A stretch of DNA of 8,887 nucleotides from an uncultured Formosa sp. Lineage in GTDB: Bacteria; Bacteroidota; Bacteroidia; Flavobacteriales; Flavobacteriaceae. Where the stretch lies: assembly GCA_902516685.1 (NCBI GenBank), contig CABXZJ010000031.1, positions 1-8,887 on the forward strand. Reading direction: 5' to 3'. Each line of letters starts with the position of its first letter. Position 1 is the first letter of the stretch. The position numbers and the translations under genes were made by a program. The notes beneath the pieces were generated by a model that did no database searches, was not told where the DNA came from, and worked only from the letters and a program-made list of their open reading frames with translations. Positions 1 to 8,887 of the stretch are shown in pieces.

Positions 1-2
1 TG

Positions 3-1112
3 GCTAATCATTTAGCTGTTAAACCAAATTTAAAAACAATAATAAGTTATATGGAGGCTGAAGGATACGATGTCGTTCTGGCTGGCAAAGGTCATGTGAA
101 ACCCAATTCTGTTTTTAAGTGGACTGAATACTTTAAATCTGTAGATCACCGTTATTTACCTTTTGAAAAGCTTGAAAATTATTTGGGAAATGTGAAAAAC
201 CCTTTTTGTGTTTTCGTTACATCAGATTTTCCGCACGGTCCTTATCCTAAAAATTCAAGTTACACAAAAGATGATATATATCAGTTACCATATGATAAAG
301 GTTTTTTTAGGAATTTTAAGAGAGGGTATTATCAAAATATAAAAGACGATAATGCACAATTAGAGCGTATTCTAGAAATAGTAGAAACTTATAATTTAGT
401 TCAAAATTCAATTTTCATATATGCTTCCGATCATGGTATTTCAGGTAAGTGGGGGGTTGCCGAACAAGGACTTAAAGTCCCTTTCATAGTTCGCTGGCCT
501 GGTGTTATAAAAGCTAATAGCAGCTCTGATACCATGTTGAATTTTGTAGATGTATTGCCTACCTTTTTAGATATTATTGGTGCTAATATTCCAAGTGAGA
601 TTGATGGCAAGAGTTTTAAACAAACACTTATGGGTGATTCAAGCCCTGTCCATAAGTATATATATTCAATCGCCACTAAGCAAAATATTAGAGAATGCAG
701 AGTTTTTCCTACGCGAGCAGTAAGAGACTCCAGGTATAAGTTTATAAGAAATTATAACTCTATTGATGTTGTAGCTTCAAATTATACTGATAATTCCGTA
801 ATTAATCAATTTATAAAAATTGGTGCTGAGTCGTTTCCAGACGTTCCGTATGAAGAATTATATGATTTGAAAATAGATCCATATCAAGAAAATAATTTAA
901 TAAAAGACAAGGAACTTTCAACTGTAAAAGAGCAGCTGTCAAATGCTTTAGAATCATGGATGATTTCACAAAATGATTTTTTATTGACTCAAAAAATGCC
1001 CCTAATTAAGCCCACTTTACATCCTTTAGACCGAGTTTCTAACTGGAATAAAGTAGCTTCAGATTTAGAAGGTAAATTAAATGAAAGTGATTATCTTACA
1101 TCTCATTATTAA
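3..1112 (+). CDS. Sulfatase, S1 (SGSH-like) family, 5' end missing
   Basis: The reading frame is open from base 3, so this is the 3' portion of a gene that begins before the window; the ATG at base 51 is internal. 369 residues are visible. Seen: an AGKGHV stretch matching the GKxH motif that carries a catalytic Lys/His in S1 sulfatases, FPHGPYP (the PHxP-type motif), and YASDHG, whose Asp-His (codons at 429-434) are the usual metal/sulfate ligands. These are followed by GKWG, VPFIVRWPG and TRAVRDSRYKFIRNYN, then the ELYDLxxDPxExxNL block typical of the sulfatase C-terminus. The tail resembles N-sulfoglucosamine sulfohydrolase (SGSH)-type proteins. The formylglycine (CxPSR) segment and any signal peptide lie upstream and cannot be checked. 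Family knowledge predicts hydrolysis of sulfate esters, probably in the periplasm; the substrate is unknown. The stop is 7 bp before the next sulfatase start, so the two are probably co-transcribed. Confidence 0.9.
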   Translation, partial: ANHLAVKPNLKTIISYMEAEGYDVVLAGKGHVKPNSVFKWTEYFKSVDHRYLPFEKLENYLGNVKNPFCVFVTSDFPHGPYPKNSSYTKDDIYQLPYDKGFFRNFKRGYYQNIKDDNAQLERILEIVETYNLVQNSIFIYASDHGISGKWGVAEQGLKVPFIVRWPGVIKANSSSDTMLNFVDVLPTFLDIIGANIPSEIDGKSFKQTLMGDSSPVHKYIYSIATKQNIRECRVFPTRAVRDSRYKFIRNYNSIDVVASNYTDNSVINQFIKIGAESFPDVPYEELYDLKIDPYQENNLIKDKELSTVKEQLSNALESWMISQNDFLLTQKMPLIKPTLHPLDRVSNWNKVASDLEGKLNESDYLTSHY

Positions 1113-1119
1113 AACAGTA

Positions 1120-2778
1120 ATGAATAAATTTAATTTATTTAAATATTTATTTTTCTGCTTATTACTTTCACTTTGTTTGCACAGTCAGGAGAGTAATAAC
1201 AAGCCTCTAAATGTGATTTGGATTAGTTGCGAAGATATGGGACCAGTTTTGAGCGCTTATGGTAATAAAACTATAAAGACCCCAAATATCGATCGCCTAG
1301 CTAATCAGGGTGTTAAATATACCAATGCCTACTCAACTGTGGGTGTATGTGCTCCCAGTCGATTTTCAATCATTACTGGTATGTATCCCGCCCGATTGGG
1401 TGCTCACAATATGCGCACTGGAGATCATAATAACTTTAAATGGCCAGAAGATGTCCAAATAAGGGAAGATAAAGGTGTTTTAGATAAATTAGGAAATAAC
1501 ATTCCTGATTACGAAGTAGTAACCCCTGATTATGTAAAACCTTTTACAGAATATTTGAGGGCTGATGGTTTCTATTGTGTAAACGACAATAAATGTGACT
1601 ATCAGTTCAACGCCCCTTTTACAGCATGGGATGATGTTTACGGCGGTGGATCATATAAAAATGCGCCAACAGGCACCCCATTTTTCTACGTTAAAAACTT
1701 TTACACAACCCATGAATCACGAATTTGGCGACGAAAGAATAAACCAATGACGGTATCGCCTGTTGATGTGCCTATTCCAGACTATTATCCTGATTTACCA
1801 ATAGTAAGAGAAGGAATCGCTAGAAAATACTCAAATATTGAAGCTTTTGACAAAGAGGTTGGAGAGTTACTTAATCAGTTTGAAGTTGATGGTGTACTGG
1901 ATAATTCAATTATCTTTTTTTGGAGTGACCATGGTGGTAACCTTTTACGTCAAAAAAGAGCTGTTGGTAATAGTGGACTTCATGTCCCTCTGATTGTTCG
2001 TTATCCTGATGGATTTAGAGCAGGTGAGACTGATAACAGAATGGTTTCTTTAATGGATTTAGGGCCAACTGTAATGTCATTAATCGGTATTAAACCACCA
2101 ACTTATATGGATGGTAAGGCATTTGCGGGTAAGTTTGAGGAAAATCCTCGAACCTATATATTTGGAAGCGCTGATCGCTTTGATGAATCTATTGATATGC
2201 AACGCTCGGTTTTAGATGGACGCTATGTATACATCAAGAATTTTATGCCACAGTTACCACTTATTTATAGAAACAAATATAGAGAGCAAATTCCGATGAA
2301 TAAGCAATTGATCGAACTAAATACGAAAGGAGTTCTTGAAGGCGAAGCAGCTTATATTTTTATGCAAAATAAACCCATAGAAGAATTATACGATCTTAGT
2401 TCTGATCCCTACGAGGTCAATAATTTAGCCTATAATCCCGATTTCATTGATAAATTATTAGAACTTAGAAATCAACTTTCTCAATGGCAATTAGATATTA
2501 ACGACCGAGGTTTCACACCCGAGAGTGAACTAATTAAAGAATTTTGGCCAAATATGGTTCAACCAACTACATCTAGTGTTATTATGAAAAGACAAAGTGG
2601 TAAAGTTATTTTGAGTTGTAAAACTAAAGGCTCATCAATTGCTTTTCAAACTGGAGACGCTATAGAATCAGATTATTGGCAGCTGTATACAACCCCAATA
2701 AAGCTAAAAAATAATGAAAAAATAAGAGCACGTGCAATTCGAATTGGATATAAAGCATCTAATATATTAACTAATTAA
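1120..2778 (+). CDS. Secreted Cys-type sulfatase (SGSH/S1_8-like) with C-terminal FN3-associated module
   Basis: 552 residues from the ATG at 1120. This start is preferred over the in-frame ATG at 1081 because it gives a classic signal peptide (MNKFNLFKYLFFCLLLSLCL, cleavage near HSQ) and avoids overlapping the upstream gene. Seen: WISCEDMGP with the metal ligands Glu38-Asp39, the formylglycine motif CAPSR with Cys77, Lys158 in NKCDYQF (the active-site Lys position in this subgroup), His198 in TTHES, and WSDHGG with Asp270-His271. An ELYDLSSDPYEVNNL block closes the catalytic domain, followed by a WQLD segment as in human SGSH. Residues about 482-552 (SIAFQT, LYTTPIKL, IRARAI, GYKAS) look like the CHB_HEX_C_1/FN3-associated beta-sandwich. 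Expected activity is desulfation of an oligosaccharide in the periplasm after Cys is converted to formylglycine; the substrate cannot be read from sequence. The next gene starts 3 bp after the stop. The S1_8 assignment is from memory of the family. Confidence 0.93.
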   Translation: MNKFNLFKYLFFCLLLSLCLHSQESNNKPLNVIWISCEDMGPVLSAYGNKTIKTPNIDRLANQGVKYTNAYSTVGVCAPSRFSIITGMYPARLGAHNMRTGDHNNFKWPEDVQIREDKGVLDKLGNNIPDYEVVTPDYVKPFTEYLRADGFYCVNDNKCDYQFNAPFTAWDDVYGGGSYKNAPTGTPFFYVKNFYTTHESRIWRRKNKPMTVSPVDVPIPDYYPDLPIVREGIARKYSNIEAFDKEVGELLNQFEVDGVLDNSIIFFWSDHGGNLLRQKRAVGNSGLHVPLIVRYPDGFRAGETDNRMVSLMDLGPTVMSLIGIKPPTYMDGKAFAGKFEENPRTYIFGSADRFDESIDMQRSVLDGRYVYIKNFMPQLPLIYRNKYREQIPMNKQLIELNTKGVLEGEAAYIFMQNKPIEELYDLSSDPYEVNNLAYNPDFIDKLLELRNQLSQWQLDINDRGFTPESELIKEFWPNMVQPTTSSVIMKRQSGKVILSCKTKGSSIAFQTGDAIESDYWQLYTTPIKLKNNEKIRARAIRIGYKASNILTN

Positions 2779-2781
2779 ATT

Positions 2782-4296
2782 ATGAAATCATCTAACAAAA
2801 TTTGGATTTTAATTCTTAGCATTTTTATACCATCAAACTTTTTAAATAGCCAGGCGAAAATAAAGCAAAAAAAAGAAATACTATCAATAAGTTCTCCTTC
2901 AAATGAGGTAAACAATCCAGTTCCAATTTTAAATAAAAAACATAATATACTTTTTATATCAATCGATGATTTTAGACCCAAAATAAACTCATATGGCGAG
3001 TCCCAAATGATTACTCCAAATTTAGATAAATTAGCTTCTGAAGGATTGCAATTCAATAATGCATTTACAAATATTGCGGTTTGCGGCGCTAGTAGGGCAA
3101 GTATTATGACTGGAATTAGACCAAGTCAAGAGCGCTACAATGATTACACCACAAGAGCCTCTAAAGATACTCCTGAGGCAATAACCTTAAATCAACTATT
3201 TATGGAAAATGGTTATGAGACTATTTCATATGGAAAAATTTATCATTTCCCAGATGACACAAAGAAATATTGGTCAGATAGTGATGGTGGAGCACACCAA
3301 GCAGATTACCAAGACCCAGAGGCTCAAGCACGTAAGAAAAATGGAGAGATTGGCGAACATGGTAGAAAAGGACCTGCTTTTGAATACCCAGAAATTGATG
3401 ACTATGTTTACAATGATGGAAAAATTACTAAACGGGCTTTGAAGAAAATGAAAGATTTAAAAAATTCAGATAAACCATTTTTTATGGCAGTTGGTTATGT
3501 TTCTCCTCATTTGCCTTTTATTCAACCCAAAAAATATTGGGATATGTATGATCACGCTAAAGTTTCATTAGCTGATAACCCTTATCAACCAAAAAATTCC
3601 CCTTTAGTAGCTATGGAATCTCAACATGATTCTGCTGAACTCAGGGGTATGTATTTAGATATTCCAAGTGAAGGGCCTCTGAGCGATGAAATGTCAAGAA
3701 ATTTAGTTCACGGCTATTATGCAAGCGTGAGCTACATGGATGTTTTGATAGGAGATTTAATCAAAGGTCTTGATGATATGGGACTCAGAGATAGTACTAC
3801 AATTATTTTGTGGAGTGACCATGGATTCTTTTTAGGGGAACACAGTTTATGGTGTAAGCACAGTACATTTTATGAAGCTGTAAAAATACCATTTATTATT
3901 TCTTCTCCAGGTTATCCGAAAAATCAAACCACTGAATCATTTACTGAGCTTGTTGATGTTTATCCAACTCTTTGTGAATTGACAGGAATTAAGGCTCCAA
4001 ATTATATTCATGGAAAGAGTTTGGTACCTGTTTTGAAAAATTCAAAGAAGCACATTAAGGATGAGATTTATACGAGATATAAACAAGGCGAAGCGGTAAT
4101 TGATAAAGATTTTTCATACACAGAATTTTATCAAGGAAAAGAATATTTAGGTAATATGTTGTTTGATTTAAATAAAGATAAAAGACAAAATATTGACATA
4201 TCTAAACTACCCAAAAACGAAGCTTTAGTTAAAAAATATAGCAAAAAATTAAAGGTTATGAGGGATTTTGTAAATAAGGATCCATTGAAAAAATAA
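2782..4296 (+). CDS. Iduronate-2-sulfatase-like sulfatase (S1_7-like)
   Basis: 504 residues with an N-terminal signal peptide (KIWILILSIFIPSNFLNSQ, cleavage near residue 24) followed by a Lys-rich linker. Catalytic features in order: FISIDDFRP with Asp62-Asp63, the formylglycine segment VCGASRASIMTG with Cys101, YGKIYH with Lys152 and His155, YVSPHLPF with His243, and WSDHGFFLGEHSLWCKHS with Asp346-His347. The IDDFRP, GKIYH and DHGxxLGEHxxW signatures match the iduronate-2-sulfatase group. In algal-polysaccharide loci this group acts on sulfated sugars other than iduronate, so the human name should not be taken as the substrate. The active-site motif has Ala instead of the commoner Pro (CxASR); this still fits the C-x-A/P-x-R pattern of anaerobic-type maturases. 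It starts 3 bp after the previous stop, so it is probably translated from the same mRNA. Likely location is the periplasm. Confidence 0.93.
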   Translation: MKSSNKIWILILSIFIPSNFLNSQAKIKQKKEILSISSPSNEVNNPVPILNKKHNILFISIDDFRPKINSYGESQMITPNLDKLASEGLQFNNAFTNIAVCGASRASIMTGIRPSQERYNDYTTRASKDTPEAITLNQLFMENGYETISYGKIYHFPDDTKKYWSDSDGGAHQADYQDPEAQARKKNGEIGEHGRKGPAFEYPEIDDYVYNDGKITKRALKKMKDLKNSDKPFFMAVGYVSPHLPFIQPKKYWDMYDHAKVSLADNPYQPKNSPLVAMESQHDSAELRGMYLDIPSEGPLSDEMSRNLVHGYYASVSYMDVLIGDLIKGLDDMGLRDSTTIILWSDHGFFLGEHSLWCKHSTFYEAVKIPFIISSPGYPKNQTTESFTELVDVYPTLCELTGIKAPNYIHGKSLVPVLKNSKKHIKDEIYTRYKQGEAVIDKDFSYTEFYQGKEYLGNMLFDLNKDKRQNIDISKLPKNEALVKKYSKKLKVMRDFVNKDPLKK

Positions 4297-4417
4297 ATAA
4301 CCAATAACTATTTATGAATTATGTAGTAATATTTATTCGTTCAATTTTTATATTTTTACTTTATTCATTAATTATTTAAGTTGTAAAATTTTAATTTAAG
4401 TTAAATAATTATTTATT
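4297..4417 (+). other. AT-rich intergenic gap between sulfatases and beta-helix gene
   Basis: This is the only sizeable gap in the window (121 bp, nearly all A/T); every other gene junction is 3-10 bp. It is the natural place for an internal promoter separating a sulfatase transcript from the beta-helix/xylanase/transporter transcript. No clear copy of the Bacteroidota promoter pattern (TTTG, then about 19 bp, then TAnnTTTG) was found, and there is no G+C-rich hairpin with a T tract that would mark a strong terminator. It does hold the inverted repeat listed separately. Confidence 0.4.
4369..4411. repeat. 11-bp perfect inverted repeat upstream of beta-helix gene
   Basis: TAATTATTTAA at 4369-4379 is the exact reverse complement of TTAAATAATTA at 4401-4411, with a 21-nt spacer. 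The right arm ends 6 bp before the ATG at 4418. It could be a weak stem in the 5' leader, an operator-like dyad, or chance: both arms are pure A/T in an AT-rich region, so coincidence is quite possible. Confidence 0.3.
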
Positions 4418-6685
4418 ATGATTTCTAGACTCTTTTTTTTGACTTTATTAATTTTTTCAAGTTTCAGCTTTGGGCAGGATTTCCAGGATTTCTATGTATC
4501 TAATAGTCATGGTCAAGATACTAATAGTGGCTCAGAATTTGCACCATTTAAGACAATTAATCGAGCTATTTCTTCTGTAAACCCAGGTGGTACCATTTAT
4601 GTGATGCAAGGAATATATAGAAATAATAATTTTGGTAGTGTAAATGTATCTAACTACACTAATATGAGTAATCCACATGTTGTTACAATAAATAAATCCG
4701 GAACAGAAGGAAATTATATTACATTAAGAAATTACCCAGGTGACCTACCTAAAATAGAGTTTGATGGTAAGGGGGGAATTCTAATTTCCAATAATATGAA
4801 TTATATTATTATTGATGGTTTTGAAGTAGAAGGTCCATCACAAGATATTAATTATGATATGGCGATGGCTAACAGGGAATATAAAGTTTCTGTTGCTGAG
4901 GACGACGATGATAGCACCAATTATAATCATAATTATTTTTCTGGAAAAGGAATTTGGGGTGGTTATGGAGCTCACCATCACATTATTATAAGAAACAATA
5001 TTGTTCACGATACTCCAGGATCTGCAATTCGTTTTAATGATTCTGATCACATAACAATTGAACATAATACTGTTTACAACGCTACTTGGTGGACATCTTC
5101 GGCTTCCAGTGCTGTTGTATATGCCGAAACAATTTCGGCTTCAGAATCTGACAATGGCTATGATATAAAAATGATTATGAGAGGAAATATAGTTTACAAC
5201 AATTGGAACCGTATTCCTTTTTATGTGACTCAACTTCCTGATAATTCTGGAAATACAAATCCTAATTATGGAACTGCTACATACAATAGTATATTAGATG
5301 GCCAGGGTCTTTATGTCACTAGAAGCGATGACAACTATAATGGTACGTTTTTGTTTGAAAATAATATTTGTGTTAACAATGGGAAAAATGGAATTAATTT
5401 TGACAACTCATTGTCTGCTTCAGCTATCTACCGAAATAATACACTTTACTTAAATGGTGTTCATGAATACATACAAGATTTATCTGTTGCAGACGGAAAT
5501 CCTGCTCATCGTGGTCAAAATGTTGCAGGAATTAAAGCCAATAGAGTTTTTAATGCGACAGTGGTTAATAATATAATTGTAACAAGATCTTTGGATGCAG
5601 CTCCATCTTATTATCAGAACGGATTTTCTGCACTCCAACTTAATCAAGTTAGTGGAACAAGAATAGCTAACAATAATATTTTTGTCAATGGTTCTTACGC
5701 CTGGCCAGCGACAGAAACTAACAACTTAGTTGATGTTGATCCTCAATTTATTTTACCGCCGAATGATACAGAAGGCCCTATTGATATGTCATCAGCTGAT
5801 TTTTCACTTAATGAAAACTCACCAGCAATCAATGCAGGAGATTTTAATTACTCTCCAATGTATGATATCTTGGGTAATCCAAGACCTGTACTTTCCAATG
5901 CTATTTCTTCATCAAGCTTTGAAAACTCAACTGGAGGATGGAGCGCATTTGGCTCAACCATTCAATCTTCTGAAACCACCTCTAGATCGGGAGCTTCGAG
6001 CCTATTAGTAACTGATCGAACTTTAAATTGGCATAGTCCAAAATTAGTTTTAGATAATTTATTAACAGTTGGCGATACATATACTTTTTACGTTTGGGTA
6101 AAATTAGCTGATGGTGTTTCAGGAAATTCGCAAATAACAATTAAAAATACCTCTTTAAACAACTATACTAGTGTTTCTTCAAGCACTCTTGTTTCAGATC
6201 AGGAGTGGACACTACTAAGCGGAGATTACAACTACGCTGCACCCGACAATTTATTTGTTTATGTAAAAGGTCCATCTATGGATGACGGGGGTGGTGATTA
6301 CTTCATTGATGATTTTTCACTTGTCCCTCAAGGTTATCCCGCAATTGATTTTTCAAATACCGATGATGACGATGTAGTTGATATTGGAGCTTATGAGTAT
6401 ATAGATCAATCGCTTGGTAATAGTGAAATAATTAATAACCAATTTGAAGCCATTAACTATCCAAATCCCGCCAAACATTATGTTTCGATTTCAAATTTAA
6501 GTATTGATGATAAAATTTTAATTTCTGATTTGTTGGGAAAAAATTATCAATTGTCTCAAACACAAAATTTTGAAAAAAATACTATCATATTAGATGTGTC
6601 AACTTTAAGCGCAGGTTTGTATTTAATCACAGTTTTAAATAATAAGACCCAAAGAACTCAAACTCTTAGACTAATTAAACAATAA
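4418..6685 (+). CDS. T9SS-secreted right-handed beta-helix protein with CBM22-like module
   Basis: 755 residues. Residues 1-20 form a signal peptide ending in FSFGQ. Residues about 24-475 are a right-handed parallel beta-helix: a DUF1565-type opening (FYVSNSHGQDTNSGSEFAPF, then TINRAISSVNPGGTIYV) and repeated N-rich rungs such as IIIRNNIVHDTPGSAIRF and ITIEHNTVYN. Residues about 492-637 resemble CBM22/CBM4_9: SSFENSTGGWSAFGS, TSRSGASSLLVTDRT, YTFYVWVKLADG, and a closing DYFIDDFSLV. Residues about 678-755 are a T9SS type A sorting domain (YPNPAKHYVSI, LISDLLGKNY, LSAGLYLITV), so the protein should be exported across the outer membrane. The fold is shared by polysaccharide lyases, some hydrolases and non-enzymatic binders; no catalytic set could be assigned. 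CBM22 modules usually bind xylan or mixed-linkage glucan, which fits the adjacent GH10 gene 7 bp downstream. Confidence is high for the domains and low for catalysis. Confidence 0.88.
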   Translation: MISRLFFLTLLIFSSFSFGQDFQDFYVSNSHGQDTNSGSEFAPFKTINRAISSVNPGGTIYVMQGIYRNNNFGSVNVSNYTNMSNPHVVTINKSGTEGNYITLRNYPGDLPKIEFDGKGGILISNNMNYIIIDGFEVEGPSQDINYDMAMANREYKVSVAEDDDDSTNYNHNYFSGKGIWGGYGAHHHIIIRNNIVHDTPGSAIRFNDSDHITIEHNTVYNATWWTSSASSAVVYAETISASESDNGYDIKMIMRGNIVYNNWNRIPFYVTQLPDNSGNTNPNYGTATYNSILDGQGLYVTRSDDNYNGTFLFENNICVNNGKNGINFDNSLSASAIYRNNTLYLNGVHEYIQDLSVADGNPAHRGQNVAGIKANRVFNATVVNNIIVTRSLDAAPSYYQNGFSALQLNQVSGTRIANNNIFVNGSYAWPATETNNLVDVDPQFILPPNDTEGPIDMSSADFSLNENSPAINAGDFNYSPMYDILGNPRPVLSNAISSSSFENSTGGWSAFGSTIQSSETTSRSGASSLLVTDRTLNWHSPKLVLDNLLTVGDTYTFYVWVKLADGVSGNSQITIKNTSLNNYTSVSSSTLVSDQEWTLLSGDYNYAAPDNLFVYVKGPSMDDGGGDYFIDDFSLVPQGYPAIDFSNTDDDDVVDIGAYEYIDQSLGNSEIINNQFEAINYPNPAKHYVSISNLSIDDKILISDLLGKNYQLSQTQNFEKNTIILDVSTLSAGLYLITVLNNKTQRTQTLRLIKQ

Positions 6686-6692
6686 TTCACAT

Positions 6693-6854
6693 ATGATTAA
6701 TAATGTTAAAAAACTAGTATTAATTAACATATTTACGCTGGTAATTTGTTTAATTAGTTGTGCAAATACTAACTCTAATCATCAAAATAATTCAATATCA
6801 CTTGCAGAAAATATAATTGCTGTTGCTCTTCGATTATTTTTCCATTCGGAGTAA
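6693..6854 (+). CDS. 5' fragment of the xylanase gene: lipoprotein signal plus out-of-place tail
   Basis: A 53-codon frame beginning 7 bp after the beta-helix stop. Codons 1-40 are the native xylanase N-terminus: a basic start (MINNVKK), a hydrophobic stretch, the LISC lipobox with Cys23 as the expected lipidation site, and an Asn/Ser-rich linker. Codons 41-53 (IIAVALRLFFHSE) come from the inserted antisense transporter DNA and are meaningless here. If expressed as written it would give only a tiny lipopeptide. It supplies the true start and export signal for the GH10 domain that resumes at 7106. Confidence 0.6.
   Translation: MINNVKKLVLINIFTLVICLISCANTNSNHQNNSISLAENIIAVALRLFFHSE
6765..6812 (+). 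repeat. 48-bp direct repeat, left copy
   Basis: Identical over 48 bp to 7058-7105; the flanking bases differ on both sides. It encodes xylanase codons 25-40 (NTNSNHQNNSISLAEN) in the native frame. In the right copy the same 16 codons are in frame with the rest of GH10, which shows that it is a duplicated piece of the xylanase gene and not an independent element. Confidence 0.97.
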
Positions 6855-7057
6855 TCAGCAACATCTGCAATCATAGCCCACAATAATGGTATGGTGATAC
6901 CATAAAAGAATCCATGTAAAATTTGAGACATAAAAATAAGTTCTATATCAGTTGTTTTAAAAAAGTTGAATAGAATTATAAAAACAGTAGAAATTACAAG
7001 AAATAAGCCAAAAATATTTCGTTTTCCATACTTATCGGCTAATGATTTAGACAAACC
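6813..7057 (-). pseudogene. Inverted internal fragment of a GPH-family sugar transporter gene
   Basis: On the minus strand this 245-bp stretch encodes about 80 residues of transmembrane protein: SLADKYGKRNIFGLFLVIST, then an ILFNFFKTTDIELIFMSQIL segment, then PLLWAMIADVADYSEWK and NNRRATAIIF. This matches the C-terminal half of MelB/XynP-like transporters, where ADxxDYxExKxxxR is a hallmark. It has no start, no N-terminal half and no proper end. The apparent minus-strand frame 6782-7078 uses a TTG start and a TGA stop that both fall inside the flanking 48-bp xylanase repeats, so those ends are accidental. The downstream transporter gene (from 8136) is cut off by the window before reaching this region, so the fragment may be an inverted copy of that same gene; that is inference. 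Confidence 0.85.
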
Positions 7058-7105
7058 AATACTAACTCTAATCATCAAAATAATTCAATATCACTTGCAG
7101 AAAAT
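7058..7105 (+). repeat. 48-bp direct repeat, right copy
   Basis: Perfect second copy of 6765-6812, offset by 293 bp. It is in frame with the GH10 catalytic domain that follows at 7106. At 48 bp it is far longer than usual transposon target duplications (2-14 bp). The insert lacks terminal inverted repeats and any transposase, so an insertion-sequence origin is not supported. Confidence 0.97.
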
Positions 7106-7231
7106 TTTAAAGGTTTATTTTACTTAGGAGCTGCTATTAACGAGCCCACTATTCTAGGCAACGATTCTAAATCCAAAAAGATTGTAATTAATCAGTTTAA
7201 TTCTATAACTCCTGAAAACTCGTTAAAATGG

Positions 7232-8125
7232 ATGTTTATTCAGCCTAAGCCAAATAAATTTAATTTTAAAGCAGCAGATAAATACATCCAAATCGGAATT
7301 GAAAATGATATGTATATTGTTGGACATGCTTTGGTATGGCATTCCCAATTAGCTGATTTTATGCATAATACTAAGAACAAAAAAGAATTTAAATCTCATG
7401 TTGATAATCATCTCAATAATATAGTCACTAGATATAAAGGTAAAATTAATGCATGGGATGTAGTCAATGAAGCTTTTGAAGAAGATGGTCGTTTACGTAA
7501 ATCAGTTTTTTATAAAAATATGGGTGAAAATTATATAGAAGATATTTTTAAGCTTGCTCAGAAATTAGATCCAGAAGCTAATTTGATATACAACGATTAC
7601 AATTTATACAAGCCCAAGAAGAGAGCTGCAGTTATAAAAATGGTCGAACAATTTAAAGCCAATGGAACCAAGATTAATGGTATTGGTGTTCAGGCTCATT
7701 GGGATTTAAAATCTCCAAGCTTAAAAGAGATAGAGCAAATTATTTTAGATGTTTATAATGCCGGTGTAAGTGTTTCTTTTACTGAACTAGATATCTCTGT
7801 ATTACCCAGTCCATGGGAGATGGTTGGAGCAGAGGTTACCCAGAACTTTTCAAAATTTGAAGGGGACCCTAAAATGGACCCATATCCAAACGGCTTACCA
7901 GAAGATGTTCAGCAAAAATTAGCTCAGCGATATGAAGATATTTTCAATCTTTTTGTTAAGCATGGCGATAAAATTGAAAGAGTTACTTTTTGGGGAGTGA
8001 TGGATAAACATTCTTGGCTTAACGATTGGCCTATTAAAGGGCGTACTAATTATCCACTCCTATTTAATAGGGACTATCAGCCCAAGTATGCCTACAAACG
8101 ACTTTTAGATTTGAATACTAATTAA
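7232..8125 (+). CDS. GH10 xylanase catalytic domain, residual open reading frame lacking its N-terminus
   Basis: 297 codons from the first ATG left in the GH10 frame after the insertion. It keeps the acid/base Glu80 (WDVVNE) and nucleophile Glu185 (FTELDIS), the GHALVWHSQ motif, and the C-terminal TFWGVMDKHSWLNDWP segment. Codons 7106-7231 are cut off; they hold the first part of the barrel and the ENSLKW substrate-binding residues, and the signal peptide is lost too. This ATG is Met83 of the reconstructed protein and not a natural start; no ribosome-binding sequence precedes it. A product begun here would be cytoplasmic and probably misfolded. Gene callers will probably report this frame as an intact xylanase, which would mislead. 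Confidence 0.75.
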   Translation: MFIQPKPNKFNFKAADKYIQIGIENDMYIVGHALVWHSQLADFMHNTKNKKEFKSHVDNHLNNIVTRYKGKINAWDVVNEAFEEDGRLRKSVFYKNMGENYIEDIFKLAQKLDPEANLIYNDYNLYKPKKRAAVIKMVEQFKANGTKINGIGVQAHWDLKSPSLKEIEQIILDVYNAGVSVSFTELDISVLPSPWEMVGAEVTQNFSKFEGDPKMDPYPNGLPEDVQQKLAQRYEDIFNLFVKHGDKIERVTFWGVMDKHSWLNDWPIKGRTNYPLLFNRDYQPKYAYKRLLDLNTN

Positions 8126-8135
8126 TAATTTTCAT

Positions 8136-8887
8136 ATGAAATCTATTTCCGAAAAATTATCCATTACAGAAAAAATTGGTTACAGTCTTGGTGATCTTGC
8201 TGCTAATTTGGTTTTTCAAACCTTGATTACTTATTTGGCCTATTTCTACACAGACATTTATGGACTCGAGGCTAGTGATGCTACTGCCGTTATTTGGTTT
8301 GTTGGATTAATTGCTGCTGTTGGATTTAATCCAATTGTGGGGGCTATAGCGGATAGAACAAATTCTAGGTGGGGAAAATTCAGACCATGGATTCTTTGGA
8401 CAGCTGTACCATTAGGAATTATCTCAGTTTTGGCATTTAGTACTCCAGATTTCAGCTACCAGGGAAAGGTCATTTATGCGGTTGTCACTTACACATTACT
8501 GCTTTTACTATACGCTTCAAGTAACCTGCCTTACTCCGCGCTTAGTGGAGTTATCACTGGAAATATGAAAGATCGCAATAGTATATCTTCCTATCGATTT
8601 GTAGCGGTTATGTTTGCTCAATTTTTTGTTCAAGTTTTTATGTTACCAATTATTAACTATGTTGGTGGTGGTGATAAAGCAGTAGGAATTGAAATTGTAA
8701 TGACTTGGTTGGCTATCATTGGAACAGTTATGCTGTTAGTAACCTTTATGACCACCCGAGAACGCATTGTACCTAGCGAAGAACAAAAGTCTACATTTAT
8801 AGAAGATTTAAAAGATTTGATTTATAATAGACCTTGGGTTATTATGTTATTTTTAACAACACTAACTTTTGTTTCTTTAGCCTTAAA
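8136..8887 (+). CDS. GPH-family (MelB/XynP-like) sugar transporter, 3' end beyond window
   Basis: An open frame from ATG 8136 runs off the right edge after 250 codons; it begins 10 bp after the xylanase stop. Seen: KIGYSLGDLAANLVFQTL, an ITYLAYFYTDIYGL segment (the GPH opening helix), NPIVGAIADRTNSRWGKFRP (the loop 2-3 signature), NLPYSALSGVIT, YRFVAV, and several hydrophobic helices, consistent with the first six helices of a 12-helix carrier. GPH proteins import glycosides or uronides across the inner membrane by cation symport; next to GH10 a xyloside or related product is likely. The two Asp residues that bind the coupling cation in MelB (D55 and D59) align with Ala61 and Asn65, so Na+ coupling of the MelB type is doubtful. 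The missing C-terminal half is the part whose sequence type appears inverted at 6813-7057. Confidence 0.92.
   Translation, partial: MKSISEKLSITEKIGYSLGDLAANLVFQTLITYLAYFYTDIYGLEASDATAVIWFVGLIAAVGFNPIVGAIADRTNSRWGKFRPWILWTAVPLGIISVLAFSTPDFSYQGKVIYAVVTYTLLLLLYASSNLPYSALSGVITGNMKDRNSISSYRFVAVMFAQFFVQVFMLPIINYVGGGDKAVGIEIVMTWLAIIGTVMLLVTFMTTRERIVPSEEQKSTFIEDLKDLIYNRPWVIMLFLTTLTFVSLAL

Follow-up and report, generated by a model that had tools for sequence, protein, structure and literature searches.

Probable double inverted template switch behind a xylanase gene broken by a piece of its neighbour in a Formosa sp. contig

How did a backward piece of a sugar transporter gene come to lie inside a xylanase gene, between two perfect copies of a 48-bp stretch of that xylanase, and did this happen in the bacterium or in the tube? 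The question arises from a stretch of 8887 bp from an uncultured Formosa sp. (hereafter the window), which appears to be an entire contig, its proteins being listed on one of 8887 bp, and has 33% G+C. On its plus strand the window carries three sulfatase genes (the first truncated at the contig start), a gene for one protein combining DUF1565, CBM4_9 and a Por secretion tail, the GH10 xylanase gene and a partial MFS_2 (GPH) transporter gene comprising the first 250 codons; no tRNA or tmRNA gene was found in the window. The five genes other than the xylanase, complete or partial, are without a break. In the closest relative that we found, a locus from a Formosa sp. MAG (L001), the first sulfatase gene has a SusD gene two genes upstream, and the GPH gene is followed on its 3′ side by genes for a GH43 protein, an FGGY kinase, a protein without a Pfam match at 1e-10 and an SSF transporter. 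Together with this neighbourhood of the relative, the window locus resembles one pattern of the sulfated-xylan loci of marine Bacteroidetes, namely that with three sulfatases, GH10, GH43 and others, as described in the available part of PMC6794258.

The features around the interruption are given below in window coordinates, with L001 serving as proxy donor for the joints.

6693..6812, plus strand: first 40 codons of the xylanase gene, with a signal peptide that we take to be lipoprotein-like from its LISC motif; collinear with L001 5881-6000; its 3′ end is one proposed switch point
6765..6812, plus strand: 48-bp direct repeat, copy 1 (xylanase codons 25-40), 48/48 identical to copy 2
6782..7078, minus strand: chimeric 98-aa ORF crossing both joints (from the ORF list)
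6804..6812, no strand assigned: joint 1 microhomology of 9 nt (GCAGAAAAT), shared by the xylanase and the transporter minus strand
6813..7057, minus strand: inverted internal piece of the neighbouring GPH/MFS_2 transporter gene, 245 bp, 81 codons; L001 8208-7964, minus strand
7058..7062, no strand assigned: joint 2 microhomology of 5 nt (AATAC), within a weaker donor/xylanase similarity of 29 columns
7058..7105, plus strand: 48-bp direct repeat, copy 2, 48/48 identical to copy 1
7106..8125, plus strand: remainder of the GH10 xylanase gene, an unbroken frame of 339 codons plus stop (PF00331, E 7.6e-97)
8136..8887, plus strand: donor-type GPH transporter gene, N-terminal 250 codons (PF13347, E 1.9e-45)

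The two repeat copies lie 293 bp apart from start to start, and both align to one and the same stretch of L001 (5953-6000), to which they are identical. A self-BLAST of the window gave no other repeat pair of at least 40 bp and at least 88% identity. The minus-strand ORF across the insert matches PF13347 (MFS_2) with an E value of 2.2e-16, the family that is also matched by the neighbouring transporter gene, and the insert differs from its counterpart in L001 by 7 mismatches in 243 nt compared. Read through the insert from the ATG at 6693, the xylanase frame meets a stop after 53 codons, while a search for start codons in the remainder of the gene gives only an ORF at 7232-8125 (297 aa). Of the 339 residues encoded behind the insert, 4-335 fall within the PF00331 match, and the product is a predicted GH10 endo-xylanase. 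When 6812 is joined to 7106 a 379-residue ORF results, the same size as the L001 orthologue. These data bear out the original prediction that 6765-6812 and 7058-7105 are identical, that the 245 bp between them encode a piece of a GPH transporter on the minus strand, and that the deletion of 293 bp restores a frame of 379 residues. The chimeric 98-aa ORF is probably a by-product of the event and not a gene.

L001 is ~94-95% identical to the window at the nucleotide level in long alignments and is collinear with it from 1 to 8887, the 293 bp being the sole large difference. It has an uninterrupted 379-codon xylanase gene followed by an intact transporter gene, so that the comparison with related genomes that the original prediction had suggested reveals both the empty site and the donor. 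Judged by sequence, an intact transporter gene of the L001 type is evidently the source of the insert; it is the next gene downstream of the xylanase, starting at 8136. By L001 coordinates the donor stretch starts ~176 bp past the window end, and it is invisible in the window because it lies beyond the right end. The donor of the strain itself being outside the window, L001 is used in its place, and the lengths of the joints may therefore be off by a few bases. The repeat and the insert are not chance, because the insert is ~95% identical to the neighbouring gene of L001 and its flanks match the uninterrupted xylanase gene of L001.

Indeed, three ordered fragments of L001, the middle one inverted, account for the sequence: the xylanase gene to 6000, the donor from 8208 down to 7964, and the xylanase gene again from 5953. 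With 20 mismatches in 513 bp and neither a gap nor an extra base, this mosaic reproduces the window stretch at 96.1% identity, against a background of ~94-95%. The two switch spans, both inverted, are 2208 and 2011 bp in L001 coordinates. In the terms of a four-point template-switch model (PMC7954356), the whole stretch is covered by the segments L to 1, 2 to 3 (inverted) and 4 to R, point 4 lying 48 bp before point 1; the searches described in the available text of that source span tens to hundreds of nucleotides, in contrast to the donor distance of 2.0-2.2 kb in the window. We also observed that, in the first part of the xylanase gene (6693-6812), the last 60 bases (6753-6812) match L001 at every position, while 8 differences fall in the 60 bases before them.

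With L001 as proxy donor, both switch points lie at short identity, of 9 nt at joint 1 and 5 nt at joint 2. A shared run of at least 9 nt occurred in 0.0115% of 200,000 random position pairs from the two genes, and a shared run of at least 5 nt in 0.86% of 200,000 such pairs; the 29-column local match around joint 2 was attained by 0.1% of 3000 random 40-mer pairs. A fold-back at joint 1 was considered and rejected, as a predicted fold of the DNA at 6745-6845 did not surpass those of shuffled sequences (z 0.95; 166 of 200 shuffles folded at least as well). Exact 35-mers across the joints were absent from 83 loci, which are diverged relatives that could miss them, and a 30-mer across joint 1 had no exact match in viral contigs; a scan with the xylanase found no viral relatives.

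From the observed mosaic and joints, and from the empty site and donor gene observed in a relative, we infer template switching as the cause. A double inverted template switch very probably made the mosaic, wherever it happened, and would explain every base without a mobile element. A DNA polymerase would have made two inverted template switches in succession. If the minus strand was being made, the growing 3′ end would have come off the xylanase template at 6765 and paired through ~5 nt with the transporter gene, which lies 2.0 kb off in the opposite orientation. After copying 245 bp there, it would have gone back to the xylanase template through a pairing of 9 nt, 48 bases behind the point of departure. 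The 48 bases would thus have been copied twice, which would account for the perfect repeat. If the plus strand was being made, the same two joints would have been used in the reverse order and both jumps would have led ahead of the polymerase. The sequence is compatible with either strand as the one being made, and the kind of event is already known, in the tube and in the cell.

We then asked how widely the interruption is shared. A scan of genome contigs with the xylanase part after the insert as query gave 21 loci, which represent 20 genomes because two of them (L017 and L019) belong to one MAG. The xylanase ORF is uninterrupted in all 21, with 371-388 codons, and in 17 of the 21 a transporter gene, whole or clipped by the stretch end, lies 3′ of it; the available stretches of L010, L012, L013 and L016 contain none. 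In the genus of G001, the genome of L001, eight of 11 genomes match the query and three do not. The xylanase frame is open as well in G019 (a 2.0-Mb contig), which is one of these eight and stands outside the 21 loci. Protein counts refer to clusters at 90% identity. The sole near-identical match of the chimeric 98-aa ORF came from the contig of the window itself, the next being 78% identical (best 120 of 404 matches). The second protein search scored the 7998 candidates that shared the most words with the query, and the best 120 of its 7577 matches were listed. Among the matches listed, the chimeric ORF and the 297-aa split xylanase are single-member entries from the window's own contig, and the closest intact xylanase cluster, P0121 (379 aa, 94% identical), has 41 member sequences; a split copy may be hidden inside this 90% cluster.

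The interrupted gene was also examined for signs of age. Relative to L001, dN/dS was 0.08 for xylanase codons 41-379 and 0.10-0.15 for the neighbouring genes; the value of 0.41 for the first 40 xylanase codons rests on eight changes. The identical repeats, the retained constraint, the uninterrupted gene in the related loci and the occurrence in one contig among the matches listed together give the event no sign of age. An old pseudogene was rejected on account of the identical repeats, the dN/dS of 0.08 after the insert and the 339 open codons.

To gauge how often such copies occur naturally we used a control of 1,044,333 bases, made up of the 8,887 bases of the window, 800,000 bases in 20-kb stretches of four relatives (G006, G007, G012 and G019), and 235,446 bases of the loci L001-L019, L022 and L023, which partly overlap the relatives' stretches and each other; L020, L021 and L024-L043 were left out. 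Pairs of at least 40 bp and at least 88% identity within 20 kb were sought, a threshold that copies below 88% would escape. In the ~1.0 Mb of partly overlapping stretches of relatives, no gene piece was found to have an inverted copy nearby at this identity. Because the relatives are mostly MAGs, the control speaks to natural events and not to amplified DNA. Inverted pairs were confined to G006, where they form one three-copy family of ~150 bp, and direct pairs were present in G006, G012, G019 and the window. The three copies of the family (G006:C4 99497-99647, 101690-101839 and 116607-116761, one of them inverted) are surrounded by stops in all six frames, so the family looks like an intergenic repeat and not like a copied gene piece.

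Several explanations do without template switching. Perfect direct repeats flanking a gene-breaking insert whose exact loss restores the frame could point to a mobile element or a programmed on/off switch, a reading that we regard as scarcely credible: the inserted DNA is part of the coding region of the neighbouring gene, and the xylanase gene is uninterrupted in every one of the related loci. The original prediction had noted the lack of a transposase and of terminal inverted repeats, and this agrees with our searches, in which a profile scan of the 7 window proteins (E ≤ 0.001) detected no transposase or recombinase family and no inverted repeat of at least 16 nt was found at the insert, the sole one in the window being an unrelated 18-nt palindrome at 8124-8147. 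On these grounds together we rejected a mobile element. A staggered double-strand break in the xylanase gene, filled in around a captured transporter fragment by end joining, would also leave a perfect direct repeat, since the fill-in of a 48-nt stagger duplicates 48 bp around any filler, and the repeat copies do agree at all 48 positions. We consider this very improbable, because it needs a broken-out copy of the donor and two ligations, each at microhomology, whereas template switching does the same with one growing strand.

An error of assembly alone, in which no molecule ever had these joints and the assembler joined graph paths wrongly, would suit the shortness of the contig and the position of the donor ~176 bp past its end, where sequence present twice could upset assembly. 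Yet the words common to both sides at the joints are 9 and 5 nt long, the k-mers usually used in assembly are longer than this, and the mosaic contains no extra base; we therefore regard such an error as improbable, if slightly less so than end joining. That the contig stops shortly before the donor stretch may be related to the donor occurring twice in the data, and this point could speak for or against an artefact.

A double inverted template switch could have taken place in vitro or in a living cell, and the joints do not separate the two. We lean towards an origin in vitro, during strand-displacement whole-genome amplification (MDA) or library preparation, which would make this a chimera in the contig and not in the bacterium. 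We give this origin about an even chance, ahead of a recent real mutation, on the grounds of the single contig, the uninterrupted relatives, the lack of age and the absence of anything comparable in ~1.0 Mb. In the accessible portion of a study of MDA from a single E. coli cell (PMC1855051), 406 of 475 chimeras were inverted, 337 of the 406 inversions spanned less than 10 kb, more than 70% of the joints had complementarity of 2-21 nt, and there was about one joint per 22 kb. Judged from the contig sequence alone, the window is like these MDA (phi29) chimeras in its inverted joining, in the distance of less than 10 kb between the segments and in its short complementarity, with 9 and 5 nt falling within 2-21 nt. 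It differs from the chimeras described there, which have two segments and one joint, in that it has a second joint, at which the sequence goes back to the template it started from. Such a pair of joints with a return within 48 bp would be more special than those chimeras, though it would be expected of a strand that remained attached to its original template. The same portion of PMC1855051 makes the case that neither hairpin priming nor a switch to the strand just displaced contributes much to MDA; this counts against the minus-strand reading in MDA and leaves the plus-strand reading unaffected.

In the available text of PMC5794965, library preparation from bulk DNA also yields some chimeric reads (184 and 130 per Mb). 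Amplified DNA is reported to give fragments with one or more inverted repeats (PMC6218980, in part), and in some reactions such fragments make up to half of the long reads, according to the part of PMC9484634 at hand. In the single-cell assemblies of PMC6162917, as far as its available text goes, chimeric reads were mostly kept out of contigs, on average 96.9% being soft-clipped when aligned to the contigs, and this counts against an artefact.

The same double inverted switch may instead have occurred in a living cell, as a recent replication error of the within-fork or MMBIR type that left a real loss-of-function allele of the xylanase gene in one lineage; we hold this possible, though with less confidence than an origin in vitro. 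Most public contigs derive from unamplified DNA, the mosaic and the joints fit this origin equally well, and the sequence outside the insert shows no fault, all five other genes being unbroken. In starving E. coli, paired inverted template switches with microhomology at the joints have been described, with a within-fork model that exposes one to two kb of single strand (PMC3161906, available part). The window shares with these events the two inverted switches per event, the microhomology at the joints and the scale of the model. The embedded inverted duplications given there are of 5.2-42.6 kb and come from lac-amplified isolates, whereas the piece in the window is 245 bp long and breaks a gene, and the jumps of 2.0-2.2 kb are somewhat longer than the 1.5 kb stated there for the E. 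coli fork. Against an origin in the cell also stand its restriction to one contig among the matches listed, the intact gene in all the related loci, the lack of any sign of age and the lack of a comparable case in the ~1.0 Mb of partly overlapping stretches of relatives.

The original prediction had left the choice between an unusual local rearrangement and a chimera of amplification or assembly. This alternative stands, and the comparison with L001 supports the core common to both sides, an inverted copy of the immediate neighbour gene, for which template switching at microhomology is the best explanation; the word unusual proved too strong, since the available texts describe paired inverted switches (PMC3161906) and typical inverted joints in MDA (PMC1855051).

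If the event took place in vitro, the window offers a tidy case of a chimera with two joints, one that disrupts a gene call and that might be taken for a pseudogene. Its signature can be scanned for in public contigs: an inverted gene piece from within a few kb, microhomology at both joints, a perfect short direct repeat, and a gene that is uninterrupted in relatives. If it took place in vivo, paired inverted switching near the fork distance has here a natural case beyond laboratory E. coli, in a form that could be reverted exactly. The perfect 48-bp repeats would allow the event to be undone by slippage or recombination. In its fullest form, which we put forward only tentatively and think rather unlikely, the origin in the cell would be a real and very recent mutation in an uncultured marine flavobacterium, in which a replication fork inserted 245 bp of the following gene into the xylanase gene in reverse and resumed 48 bp behind the point where it had left, so that the gene is off. 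Because the perfect repeats could restore the gene exactly, slippage during replication would amount to a reversible switch that arose by accident.

Three minor observations concern the related loci. In L013, a record of 8785 bp filed under a Methylobacillus MAG, the xylanase and sulfatase are ~70% identical to those of this flavobacterial locus, and the record is probably a misbinned contig. The transporter of L019 matches as two overlapping pieces in different frames at 8096-8115, suggesting a frame break there. The MAG to which L017 and L019 belong, AB_MB169, carries the run of sulfatase, xylanase and transporter genes twice, on separate contigs, which reflects either a duplicated locus or a mixed bin.
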